Below are positions 1,552-5,105 of a DNA stretch of 16,048 nt, in pieces. This DNA comes from Candidatus Altarchaeum sp. (GTDB taxonomy: Archaea > Altiarchaeota > Altiarchaeia > Altiarchaeales > Altiarchaeaceae): assembly GCA_018260755.1 (NCBI GenBank), contig JAGTWP010000019.1, positions 1 through 16,048 of the forward strand. Direction: 5' to 3'. The notes under the pieces are model-generated. The model did no database searches and was not told the DNA's origin. It worked only from the letters and a program-made list of their open reading frames with translations. The position numbers were made by a program, and so were the translations under genes. How positions within the stretch are numbered: the first letter of the stretch is position 1; each line of letters opens with the position of its first letter.

Positions 1552-2393
1552 ATCACAGGGACTTCATAGAAAAGGACTCTAAATTTTATGCCATTTTAAG
1601 CACAAAACCATTGGTATGTTCTTTAAGATACGCACAAACAGATGGAATTCTTAAAAAGGTTGATGGAGGAATTGTTGTTATTGATGATATTGACGATGTC
1701 CAAATTTTTAGCGGAAGAGAACGACTGAACGATATAATTAACCATCACGCAGATGTTTATGAGCGGGATGTGTATGATTTGGCTAAATTTCTGTCAAATT
1801 TTACCGACACAAAAAATTTGGGAATTTCCGGTTCTGGACTTATTAAATGTTACAAAAATGATTCTGACATTGACTTTGTTGTTTACGGAATAAAAAATTT
1901 TAACAATGCGAGGAATGCAATCAAACGAGCAATTTTAAACAACGGGGTAGTTAAGAACTTAAATTTGGAACAATGGAAAGAACTCTATGCAAAGCGGATA
2001 TTCGGTAATGAATTAACTTATGATGAATTTTTATGGCACGAGAACAGAAAATTTAATAAAGGAACAATCAACAACAGAAAATTTGATCTTTTGCTTTCGG
2101 ATGATGTAAGGGTAAATTTAAATTTTAAAAAAATCGGAAATATTGTAAAGAAAGGTAAAGTTATCAAATCAAGTCCCTTTTCATATCCTGCTTATTATGA
2201 AATTATTGAGCACAACGAAATTTCAAAAATTTTATGTTGGACACATACCTACATTGGGCAGGCATTTGAAGGTGAAAATATAGAAGTTTCCGGGATGCTT
2301 GAAGAAATAAATAACAGAACAGGTTATGAAAAATTTATAATTGTTGGAACATCAAGAAAAGCAATCGGCGAATATATAAAAGTAATAAAGTGA
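1536..2393 (+). CDS. Archaeal nucleotidyltransferase (DNA polymerase beta-like fold, COG1665-like)
   Basis: A 285-residue protein. The N-terminus (RDFIEKDSKFYAIL, residues 8-21) resembles the opening of the archaeal COG1665 predicted nucleotidyltransferases, in which RDF-I-E precedes a short beta-rich region. The catalytic signature of the pol-beta superfamily is visible: GSG at 99-101, then SDIDF at 110-114, giving the paired metal-binding Asp111 and Asp113. RKFDLLL around Asp184 is a good candidate for the third carboxylate. These enzymes transfer a nucleotide to a substrate that is unknown for this group. The only plausible start is the ATG at 1536, inside the 3' end of the TPR gene in another frame, which implies translational coupling. 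Superfamily assignment is firm; the biochemical role is not known. Confidence 0.8.
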   Translation: MQYKLNHRDFIEKDSKFYAILSTKPLVCSLRYAQTDGILKKVDGGIVVIDDIDDVQIFSGRERLNDIINHHADVYERDVYDLAKFLSNFTDTKNLGISGSGLIKCYKNDSDIDFVVYGIKNFNNARNAIKRAILNNGVVKNLNLEQWKELYAKRIFGNELTYDEFLWHENRKFNKGTINNRKFDLLLSDDVRVNLNFKKIGNIVKKGKVIKSSPFSYPAYYEIIEHNEISKILCWTHTYIGQAFEGENIEVSGMLEEINNRTGYEKFIIVGTSRKAIGEYIKVIK

Positions 2394-2436
2394 AAAATAA
2401 GAAAAAAAATGAAATAAAATTTACTGAATTAACGAA

Positions 2437-2496
2437 ATGAAGAAATGCCCGAAATGCGGAAAAATGTTAATTATTTATTATTTATTGAAATTGTAA
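2437..2496 (+). pseudogene. Possible zinc-ribbon remnant or micro-ORF (19 codons)
   Basis: In the 180-bp gap after the nucleotidyltransferase, an ATG opens 19 codons reading MKKCPKCGKMLIIYYLLKL before a stop. The CPKCG knuckle is the classic first half of an archaeal zinc ribbon, but no second cysteine pair follows. It may be the stump of a small zinc-ribbon gene cut off after the first knuckle, or chance. The rest of the gap (2394-2436 and 2497-2540) is AT-rich with nothing else recognisable. Confidence 0.25.
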
Positions 2497-2540
2497 TTAT
2501 CAAATAATTAAAAATTTAAAAAATATAATAAAAACAATAA

Positions 2541-2552
2541 CCTTTAAAAAAT
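2541..2552 (+). promoter_or_regulatory. Putative BRE/TATA promoter for the FKBP-thioredoxin pair
   Basis: The run cctttaaaaaat is centred about 26 bases before the ATG at 2573, the spacing of an archaeal TATA box to a transcript that starts at or next to the start codon. The purine/C stretch just before it fits a BRE. There is no Shine-Dalgarno motif before the ATG. The whole region is AT-rich, so chance matches are easy. Confidence 0.4.
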
Positions 2553-2572
2553 AAAATTTAAAAATTTTTAAA

Positions 2573-3922
2573 ATGAATGAAAAAAATTTGTTAAAGGGCT
2601 ATGAATTATTAGGAATTGCAGCAGTCGGAGCAATTTTGATTTTAAGTATATTGATAAGCGGATGTGTGGAAGATTCTAAAACCACAACTGTGGAAGAAGG
2701 TAACCAAGTCGGAGTTTATTACATAGGAAAACTACAGAACGGGACAATATTTGACCAGTCCAAAGAAGGTAATCCTTTAACATTCATTGTTGGCAGCGGA
2801 CAAATGATCAAAGGGTTTGAAGAAGCCGTGATTGGAATGAAAGAGAATGAAACAAAAAATGTGACATTAGATCCGGAAAAGGCTTATGGTGAAAGAGATC
2901 TAAACAAAGTGAAAAAAATTCCAAAAGTCAGTGTAGAGTCCATATTTATAGACAATGTCCCATTAGGTGATTTCAAACAGATAATTGGAAAAGACCCTGT
3001 TATTAATAAAACATACACAATACAACGAATACCCTGGCCTGTAAAGGTTGTAGAAATAAAAAATACAACAGTAAAACTAAAACACGAGCCAGTTTCAGGC
3101 ACAGTAATTAATATTGGTTTTGGTAAAGTAACTACTGTAACAACAAATGAAACCAATCTGACACTTACCTCTAATCCTGTAGTTGGCACAAGGCTAAATA
3201 CACAGTCAGGAGTTGCGGTAGTATCGGATGTTGATAATAAAGATATCACTCTGGATTATAATCATCCTATGGCTGGAAAAACTTTAAATTTTGAAATTAA
3301 ATTAGTTGAAATTAAAAAATTTGACAAACCCGATGTTGAGGTTTTCGTCATGGCTTACTGTCCTTATGGAACTCAGATAGAAAAAGGAATAATACCTGTT
3401 CACGAACTGCTAAAAGATAAAGCGAATATTAGCATAAGGTTTGTGCAGTATACGATGCATGGAAAAAATGAGATTGATGAAAATACAAAGCAGTATTGCA
3501 TACAAAAGGAACAACAGGATAAATATTGGGGGTATCTTGCGTGCTTCCTTGAAAAAGGTGATTCGGCGAATTGCTTAAACAAAACCAATATAGATAAAAA
3601 CAAGCTTCAAAGTTGTATAAATGAGGCCGATAAAGAATTCAGTATTTCATCTGATTTAGCTTCGGGTGCCCAGTATCCGAGATACAGAGTCAATGAAGGT
3701 ATTGCAATGAAGTACGGCGTTCAAGGTTCTCCAACATTTGTTATAAATGGTGCACAAGTTAATGCAAATAGAGATTCGGAGTCATTAAAAAATGCAATTT
3801 GTAATGCCTTTCCACAAAAAAAGCGACCTGCCGAATGCAATCAGACATTAAGTAGTACTCCCCCTTCTCCCGGCTTTGGTTTTAGCGGAACCGGAACTAA
3901 TAGTGGCGCAACATGTGGATAA
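2573..3922 (+). CDS. Lipoprotein: FKBP/SlyD-type prolyl isomerase fused to a DsbA-like thioredoxin domain (CPYG)
   Basis: A 449-residue predicted lipoprotein acting outside the membrane. A hydrophobic segment (12-29) ends in the lipobox ISGC with Cys31 as the lipid-anchor residue. The FKBP domain starts at about 42 (VYYIGKLQNGTIFD; GSGQMIKGFEEAVIGM at 74-89; AYGERD at 104-109) and closes with NHPMAGKTLNFEI at 230-242, the arrangement of long archaeal and SlyD FKBPs with an inserted flap. Residues 155-243 contain three tandem copies of the FKBP closing element. A DsbA-like thioredoxin domain begins at about 255, with CPYG at 263-266 and the cis-proline motif GSPTFVING near the C-terminal third. 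The tail is glycine/serine-rich and ends in CG. Expected roles are prolyl isomerisation and thiol-disulfide chemistry on exported proteins. It is paired with the similar gene 10 bases downstream. Confidence 0.85.
   Translation: MNEKNLLKGYELLGIAAVGAILILSILISGCVEDSKTTTVEEGNQVGVYYIGKLQNGTIFDQSKEGNPLTFIVGSGQMIKGFEEAVIGMKENETKNVTLDPEKAYGERDLNKVKKIPKVSVESIFIDNVPLGDFKQIIGKDPVINKTYTIQRIPWPVKVVEIKNTTVKLKHEPVSGTVINIGFGKVTTVTTNETNLTLTSNPVVGTRLNTQSGVAVVSDVDNKDITLDYNHPMAGKTLNFEIKLVEIKKFDKPDVEVFVMAYCPYGTQIEKGIIPVHELLKDKANISIRFVQYTMHGKNEIDENTKQYCIQKEQQDKYWGYLACFLEKGDSANCLNKTNIDKNKLQSCINEADKEFSISSDLASGAQYPRYRVNEGIAMKYGVQGSPTFVINGAQVNANRDSESLKNAICNAFPQKKRPAECNQTLSSTPPSPGFGFSGTGTNSGATCG
2600..2667 (+). repeat. 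68-bp block identical to 3960-4027 (signal-peptide region, copy 1)
   Basis: The bases coding from Tyr10 to the residue after the lipobox cysteine are identical in both FKBP lipoproteins, including every synonymous position. The first nine codons differ at only four bases. Downstream of the block the two genes diverge strongly. This is duplicated DNA encoding the export signal. Confidence 0.95.
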
Positions 3923-3932
3923 TTTTTTTAAA

Positions 3933-5105
3933 ATGGATGAAAAAAATTTGTTAAAAGAGTATGAATTATTAGGAATTGCAGCAGTCGGAGCAATTTTGAT
4001 TTTAAGTATATTGATAAGCGGATGTGTAGATTCAGGGGGAAAACTTGTAAAAGAAGGAGATAATGTAAAAGCAAATATTACCGAAAGCAATATAACAAAC
4101 ACAATTTTTATAGAAAATATATCTGCTAAAGGAAAGAGTTACCCTTTTGAAAAGGATTTAATCGGACTGAATATCGGAGAAAAGAAAATTTTAAGTTATG
4201 AGGAAATTATTTCTGTAAAATTAAGTCAGGAACCAAAAGCAAATACCGTATATTCTACTCCTCAAGGGGCAATAAGGGTATTTAATGTTACGGATACACA
4301 ATTTTATGTAGGACAACAACCATTAACCGGAGAAACCTTAAAATTTCATGTAACTATGAAGAACATAACAAGTAAAAAAGTAAATGAAAGCATAAAGACA
4401 ACTGTTGAAAACGGTGATTCTGTTGAAGTTGAATATATAGGAACATTGACTAATGGAACGAAATTTGATAGTGGAACTATAAATTTTACAGTTGGAAGCA
4501 AGCAGATGATAAATGGCTTTGATAAAGGTGTTGTCGGGATGAAAATAGGTGAAAGCAAAGATATGGTTATTCCTCCGGAAGACGGATACGGACTTCCCGA
4601 AGCGATTCCAAGAGTAATTCCGCAAGAAATAACAATAGATGTATTTAAAGGTGCATTCAACAACGAAGAACCAATAAAAGGCAAAGAATATACAAATTTA
4701 AATAGTTTACCATGGCCAATTAAGGTCATAGATGTTAAAACAAGAACTCATAACATTACAATTGAAATTTTAGATGCCGGAAATTTTTCTTATTCTTGTC
4801 TTGAAGGATATGGAATTGATAAAGGAGCAGTTATATTTTATCATACCGACTGGTGTCCGCACTGTCAAAAGATGAAGCCATGGGTTCAAAATTTAACTGA
4901 TGAAGGATATAAATTTTTCTCGGTTGAAGCAGAAAAAGAGCCGAACAAAGTAAAGATTGTAAAAGAATGTGCATCTAAAGAAATAAATACTGGTGGAGGA
5001 ATTCCGCAATTCGGATGTCCTGCAAATGGAAAAAGCCACATTGGCGAATTTACGAGTATAGCGGATATGAAAAATTTTGCAGAAGAATGTAATAAAGCAG
5101 CGTAA
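3933..5105 (+). CDS. Lipoprotein: tandem FKBP-like domains fused to a thioredoxin domain (CPHC)
   Basis: A 390-residue protein from the ATG at 3933. An in-frame ATG at 3876 would add 19 residues inside the previous gene and is rejected, because the 3933 start aligns with the sister protein. The same signal and lipobox ISGC (Cys31) are present. Residues about 37-147 are a degenerate FKBP-like module lacking the usual opening motifs but keeping a closing element (PLTGETLKFHV, 130-140). Residues about 154-285 are a clearer FKBP domain (VEVEYIGTLTNGTKFD at 164-179, GSKQMINGFDKGVVGM at 188-203, GYG at 218-220). It lacks the final NHPLAG strand. A thioredoxin-like domain follows, with the redox motif WCPHC (Cys308, Cys311) and GIPQFGC near 356-362. 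It probably forms, with its neighbour, an extracytoplasmic folding pair. A T7 run lies in the 10-base spacer between them. Confidence 0.85.
   Translation: MDEKNLLKEYELLGIAAVGAILILSILISGCVDSGGKLVKEGDNVKANITESNITNTIFIENISAKGKSYPFEKDLIGLNIGEKKILSYEEIISVKLSQEPKANTVYSTPQGAIRVFNVTDTQFYVGQQPLTGETLKFHVTMKNITSKKVNESIKTTVENGDSVEVEYIGTLTNGTKFDSGTINFTVGSKQMINGFDKGVVGMKIGESKDMVIPPEDGYGLPEAIPRVIPQEITIDVFKGAFNNEEPIKGKEYTNLNSLPWPIKVIDVKTRTHNITIEILDAGNFSYSCLEGYGIDKGAVIFYHTDWCPHCQKMKPWVQNLTDEGYKFFSVEAEKEPNKVKIVKECASKEINTGGGIPQFGCPANGKSHIGEFTSIADMKNFAEECNKAA
3960..4027 (+). repeat. 68-bp block identical to 2600-2667 (signal-peptide region, copy 2)
   Basis: Second copy of the perfectly conserved signal-peptide and lipobox coding block; see 2600-2667. 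The duplication explains the matching export signals of the two lipoproteins. Confidence 0.95.

Follow-up and report, generated by a model that had tools for sequence, protein, structure and literature searches.

Whether proline isomerisation and disulfide chemistry can be served by one and the same exported chain is the question raised by two adjacent genes, P0001 and P0002, of an archaeon of the genus Altiarchaeum (Altarchaeum). Prolyl isomerisation and disulfide formation are two steps of protein folding classically known to be slow, and as a rule separate enzymes catalyse them. Both genes lie in the window, that is, the whole stretch of 16,048 nucleotides analysed here, whose genome (G000) comprises 78 contigs and is 85 % complete; three congeners (G001-G003, 65-87 % complete) were compared with it. 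The reading preferred here, with a probability of about 70 %, is that both products are exported lipoproteins which act as foldases with two activities outside the cytoplasmic membrane.

The original prediction described two adjacent membrane-anchored fusions of FKBP with thioredoxin-fold domains, one with CPYG and the other with CPHC. This description has held: the reading frames are intact and in tandem, with the stop of the first at 3922, the next ATG at 3933 and ten bases between, and both the lipobox leaders and the domains have been found. The TTG start listed at 3876 gives a longer P0002 frame; the leader starts at ATG 3933.

2573..3922, plus strand: P0001, 449 aa, predicted lipoprotein with leader, FKBP (with insert) and DsbA/GILT-like domain
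2573..2665, plus strand: P0001 leader, aa 1-31, ending in a lipobox-like ISGC as read from the sequence
3933..5105, plus strand: P0002, 390 aa, predicted lipoprotein with leader, degenerate FKBP, FKBP and thioredoxin
3933..4025, plus strand: P0002 leader, aa 1-31, with a lipobox-like ISGC at its end

In both proteins ILISGC closes at residue 31, a hydrophobic stretch and a lipobox cysteine being present, and both are predicted to be archaeal lipoproteins. The two leaders are 95.3 % identical in DNA across 106 bases. Within the genus, the same lipoprotein leader also stands ahead of unrelated mature proteins, namely ZnuA-type and SBP_bac_11 binding proteins and TPR proteins, with copies at G000:C41:8834-8959 (minus strand, ZnuA-type) and on G001:C164, G001:C4 and G003:C134. 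The leaders look as if they had been swapped as parts among proteins and, being shared with binding and TPR proteins, would mark export and anchoring. Altiarchaeum cells have two membranes (PMC4460559), so that "periplasm" would be a fair word for the compartment concerned. A sigma-70 promoter scan of the locus, using a model ill-suited to archaea, remained at chance level. At 41-181 the window also holds a short repeat, which recurs several times, in either orientation and at ~73-97 % identity, close to the loci of the relatives.

The domains of P0001 are the following:

2684..2923, plus strand: FKBP_C core, aa 38-117 (Pfam PF00254, E 2.1e-21)
2924..3322, plus strand: insert-in-flap-like region and C-terminal FKBP strand, aa 118-250, with partial SlyD/FkpB-type matches at aa 213-250
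3323..3919, plus strand: DsbA/GILT-like domain, aa 251-449, delimited by AlphaFold pLDDT and structure matches, of a family found in CPR/DPANN
3359-3370, plus strand: the CPYG motif within the DsbA/GILT-like domain, read from the sequence

The domain searches suggested by the original prediction placed FKBP_C far over its cut-off in P0001 and in P0002 (E 6.9e-21), with 76.5 and 74.8 bits against a curated cut-off of 21.1, and the FD...F...GF...YG core is kept in both; the thioredoxin folds of the two proteins fell below theirs. For the C-terminal part of P0001, Thioredoxin_4 (1.1e-4), DSBA (1.8e-4) and GILT (1.4e-3) were all just under the cut-offs, and for this reason other tests of these folds were made. 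Structure prediction has given a divided answer. Based on an alignment of 83 sequences, the C-terminal domain of P0001 reached a pLDDT of ~96-99, the top matches among solved structures being GILT (6nwx, Z 14.6) and DsbA (3bci, Z 13.1); the fold is that of thioredoxin with an inserted helical part, and a cis-Pro segment is present, the GSP segment being invariant. The FKBP half stayed below pLDDT 50 because the alignment is almost wholly DsbA-like, and the model of P0002 was also poor. The insert of P0001, of ~95 aa, is followed by a C-terminal segment which aligns with SlyD/FkpB, the match to FKBP26_IF being weak (E 0.66). P0001 resembles SlyD/FkpB-type FKBPs in its FKBP_C core and possibly in an insert in the flap, whereas both proteins differ from them in their predicted export, lipobox anchor and fused thioredoxin fold, and P0002 also in its shortened insert.

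The motif CPYG contains a single cysteine and is not a CxxC active site, so that a second thiol would be needed to resolve a mixed disulfide; P0001 does have a cysteine close to its C-terminus. This combination is a feature of the family. Across CPR and DPANN the DsbA-like domain is common, one scan having confirmed 379 relatives, of which 80 were kept; CPYG as well as a cysteine within the last six residues were each found in 80 of the 81 proteins counted. FKBP_C accompanies it in five of 83 proteins scanned, all five altiarchaeal; no viral relatives of the domain were found. A further survey, centred on a DPANN genome, returned mostly the same genomes again. The domain is like DsbA and GILT in its thioredoxin fold with helical insertion, but differs from both in that CPYG replaces CxxC, a conserved cysteine lies near the C-terminus and an FKBP stands in front.

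P0002 is built differently:

4032..4382, plus strand: degenerate FKBP-like N domain, aa 34-150, recognised by hhalign to the FKBP-with-insert family
4398..4781, plus strand: FKBP domain with shortened insert, aa 156-283 (Pfam PF00254, E 6.9e-21 at aa 156-232)
4791..5102, plus strand: thioredoxin module (Pfam PF00085, E 1.7e-4), with CPHC at 4854-4865

The N domain aligned end to end with FKBP-with-insert sequences (hhalign probability 97.6 %, E 4e-12), the loops having been lost, and P0002 is therefore considered to hold one degenerate and one active-looking FKBP; in the latter the insert is shortened and the last strand uncertain. This degenerate copy, the single cysteine of CPYG and the near identity of the leaders had been overlooked by the original prediction. 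The thioredoxin module scored 22.0 bits in Pfam against a cut-off of 23.5, a two-copy relative (L067) reaching 42.6. Its CPHC is the motif of E. coli DsbA, and it is followed by a cis-Pro loop, IPQF, both cysteines and the proline being invariant in 17 of 17 aligned copies. In the same copies six cysteines are invariant, the CxxC pair and four others, as would be expected for a domain living in an oxidising space. The AlphaFold model, built from four sequences, was poor (pLDDT 57.5), and its Foldseek matches to FKBP/SlyD (E 0.007-0.1) carry little weight.

The survey of co-occurrence gave support to the pair in one family and not in the nearest relatives. In all three congeners the FKBP-Trx gene occupies the corresponding syntenic position, with the upstream genes and prefoldin conserved. 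In G003 and G002 it reads leader-N-Trx-FKBP-Trx, and in G001 leader-N-Trx-FKBP, ended by a contig edge. The FKBP-DsbA gene was not found in G001-G003 at their 65-87 % completeness; a second gene behind the FKBP-Trx gene of G002 resembles a remnant that has suffered an in-frame deletion in its interior. The tandem pair was found again in WOR_SM1_SCG, of a second family (L070/L122), as FKBP-insert-DsbA and then N-Trx-FKBP-DsbA, the order being that of the window. The gene at 1718-3559 of this locus agrees in length and source with SCG_1643 (A0A098E9R9; 613 aa, FKBP_C and Thioredoxin_4), reported as a doubtful homologue of the hamus protein, closer to a putative peptidylprolyl isomerase (PMC4975002); the part of that publication available here only names it, and module structure, pairing, recurrence and conversion are not described there.

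Furthermore, another altiarchaeal family has the arrangement TM-FKBP-(CxxC region)-DsbA, with a short and different FKBP lacking the insert (L072/L155, L075/L190). In a woesearchaeote (L148) a SurA_N-parvulin-thioredoxin gene at 148-1500 stands immediately before a DsbA-like gene at 1460-2743, and the C-terminal part of its product is related to the thioredoxin module of P0002. From the altiarchaeal FKBP fusions and the woesearchaeal parvulin fusion it follows that isomerase and thiol enzyme have been joined several times, with different isomerases; DsbA-like genes and genes for module-bearing isomerases adjoin in at least two lineages. An apparent SurA-like part ahead of a DsbA domain in Micrarchaeota (L174) was discarded, as Pfam gave no confirmation.

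The CPHC module is found well beyond the pair. Among 247 archaeal genomes, in which DPANN are thinly sampled, matches above 70 bits are confined to the class of the window, where the hosts are FKBP proteins, exported beta-helix (NosD-type) proteins on G000:C49 and G003:C68, membrane-anchored proteins of 240-290 aa, and the C-terminus of AglB in G002 (1234 aa) and G001 (a 527-aa fragment). Since its hosts include unrelated exported proteins, the domain is best described as a module of the lineage, not specific to the pair; both thioredoxin folds credited to the pair by the original prediction are there, the CPHC one being no exclusive property of it. In the exported beta-helix protein of G000:C49 (L066 6818-8299) the module sits between the N-terminal part and the helix, and a Cell-wall-binding-2 protein of G025 (L112 555-2495) ends in a thioredoxin module without CxxC. 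Other altiarchaeal families have proteins of 240-260 aa which end in a CPHC-type module; that these are VKOR-Trx fusions was excluded by their sequences and by Pfam.

It is on such hosts that a non-catalytic interpretation draws, in which the FKBP domains are substrate-binding or structural surface modules and the thioredoxin parts only stabilise or sense redox state. The presence of modules related to the CPHC one in a beta-helix surface protein and, without CxxC, in a cell-wall-binding protein would agree with it. So would the degenerate FKBP of P0002 and the report (PMC4975002) that in Ca. A. hamiconexum the protein of the hamus (grappling hook) has FKBP_C beside S_Layer_N and NosD. However, the second FKBP of P0002 retains its core motifs, its CPHC is intact, and the independent fusion with another class of PPIase, the parvulins, points to a PPIase function, so that this interpretation is considered improbable.

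Within the window the module also bears the mark of an exchange:

4830..5016, plus strand: tract common to the P0002 gene and the beta-helix gene on G000:C49, attributed to gene conversion, 186 of 187 bases identical, covering the catalytic core

In this genome the identity between the FKBP-Trx and beta-helix genes is 38.5 % over the 39 bases before 4830 and 76 % past the tract. Between G000 and G003 the beta-helix orthologues are 65.7 % identical inside the tract and 95 % just past it, and the FKBP-Trx orthologues 87.7 % within it. As the tract is almost identical within the genome while about one site in three is different in the beta-helix orthologue, it is attributed, on this comparison, to a recent gene conversion between both genes, the simplest reading being that it was copied from the FKBP-Trx gene to the beta-helix gene. 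In G003, the tract is identical at 187 of 187 positions between both copies inside one protein. The near-identical leaders of P0001 and P0002 point in a similar direction. A fragmented assembly of 78 contigs might raise the suspicion that near-identical leaders and thioredoxin tracts are artefacts and the pair a chimera; nevertheless, every tract is internal to its contig and none lies at an end, the repeat of G003 falls within one protein and a further family has the tandem pair too, all of which leaves such an artefact very little credit.

All four Altiarchaeum genomes show an AglB with a cysteine-rich linker and a thioredoxin-fold tail. In addition to the CPHC tails of G002 (L084 1387-5091) and G001 (L085 4485-6068), the proteins of G000 (G000:C46, L100 1831-5790) and G003 (L101 2939-6904) carry, behind the cysteine-rich linker, DsbA-like halves in reversed order, the cis-Pro half and then the CxxC half. 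No such tail was found in other altiarchaeal AglB, many of whose loci end before the C-terminus, with the exception of a piece in G012. There, a C-terminal AglB piece with a thioredoxin module (L109 3417-4187) lies ~500 kb from the AglB gene (L105 3545-6826), with which it shares 314 bases at 98 %, and the gene appears to be split or rearranged. The eukaryotic oligosaccharyltransferase has thioredoxin subunits, MAGT1/TUSC3 and Ost3/Ost6 (PMC7563561). It is the AglB fusions, and not P0001 or P0002, that resemble Ost3/Ost6, a thioredoxin-fold domain being attached to a glycosyltransferase; those of two Altiarchaeum genomes differ in being a single chain with the module at the C-terminus, and the likeness seen is one of arrangement. 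It is a tentative idea, rather doubtful as a whole, that the thioredoxin core of Altiarchaeum is a mobile part, homogenised by conversion across exported FKBP foldases and beta-helix proteins and with related copies on AglB, and that a network made by this lineage would couple proline isomerisation, disulfide chemistry and N-glycosylation, AglB-thioredoxin being a prokaryotic counterpart of Ost3/Ost6. A literature search of partial coverage found neither PPIase-thioredoxin nor AglB/STT3-thioredoxin fusions.

As regards the preferred reading of the pair as foldases, the FKBP part would bind unfolded exported chains and speed prolyl cis-trans isomerisation, and the tethered thioredoxin-fold part would then form, break or shuffle disulfides on the same bound chain, P0001 and P0002 possibly having substrates in common. 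Of the two, P0002 with its dithiol CPHC would more probably act as oxidoreductase or disulfide donor; P0001, with CPYG and one cysteine, may rather be an isomerase or reductase of the GILT kind, its conserved cysteine near the C-terminus being a candidate for resolving the mixed disulfide. Prolyl isomerases and disulfide isomerases are known to cooperate in refolding assays. The repeated fusions and the gene neighbourhood support a joint folding role, and to this extent the coupling of isomerisation with disulfide exchange suggested by the original prediction stands, exchange by the single-cysteine CPYG domain not being self-evident. Against a foldase count the CxxG motif of P0001, the shortened insert and uncertain final strand of the P0002 FKBP, the retention of one gene of the two in three congeners and the negative searches for redox partners: VKOR as membrane oxidant gave no match over the cut-off in any of 29 genomes, and DsbD_TM was not found in the genome of the window at its 85 % completeness.

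The missing oxidase match would also suit a role of both proteins as thiol reductants or repair factors, for instance in sulfur handling, instead of oxidative foldases, as would the anoxic habitat of Altiarchaeales (PMC4975002) and the thiol reductase GILT as top fold match of the P0001 domain. Such a role is judged unlikely, since no DsbD-type electron source was found in the window's genome either, and a repair function would leave the FKBP fusion without an obvious purpose.

On the reading as foldases, single chains joining both activities, made repeatedly with different classes of isomerase, suggest an advantage of physical coupling, and the synergy can readily be tested. The conversion tract catches unrelated exported proteins in the act of exchanging a domain, and the fusions with AglB provide a minimal system in which to see how N-glycosylation might be aided by thiol enzymes.
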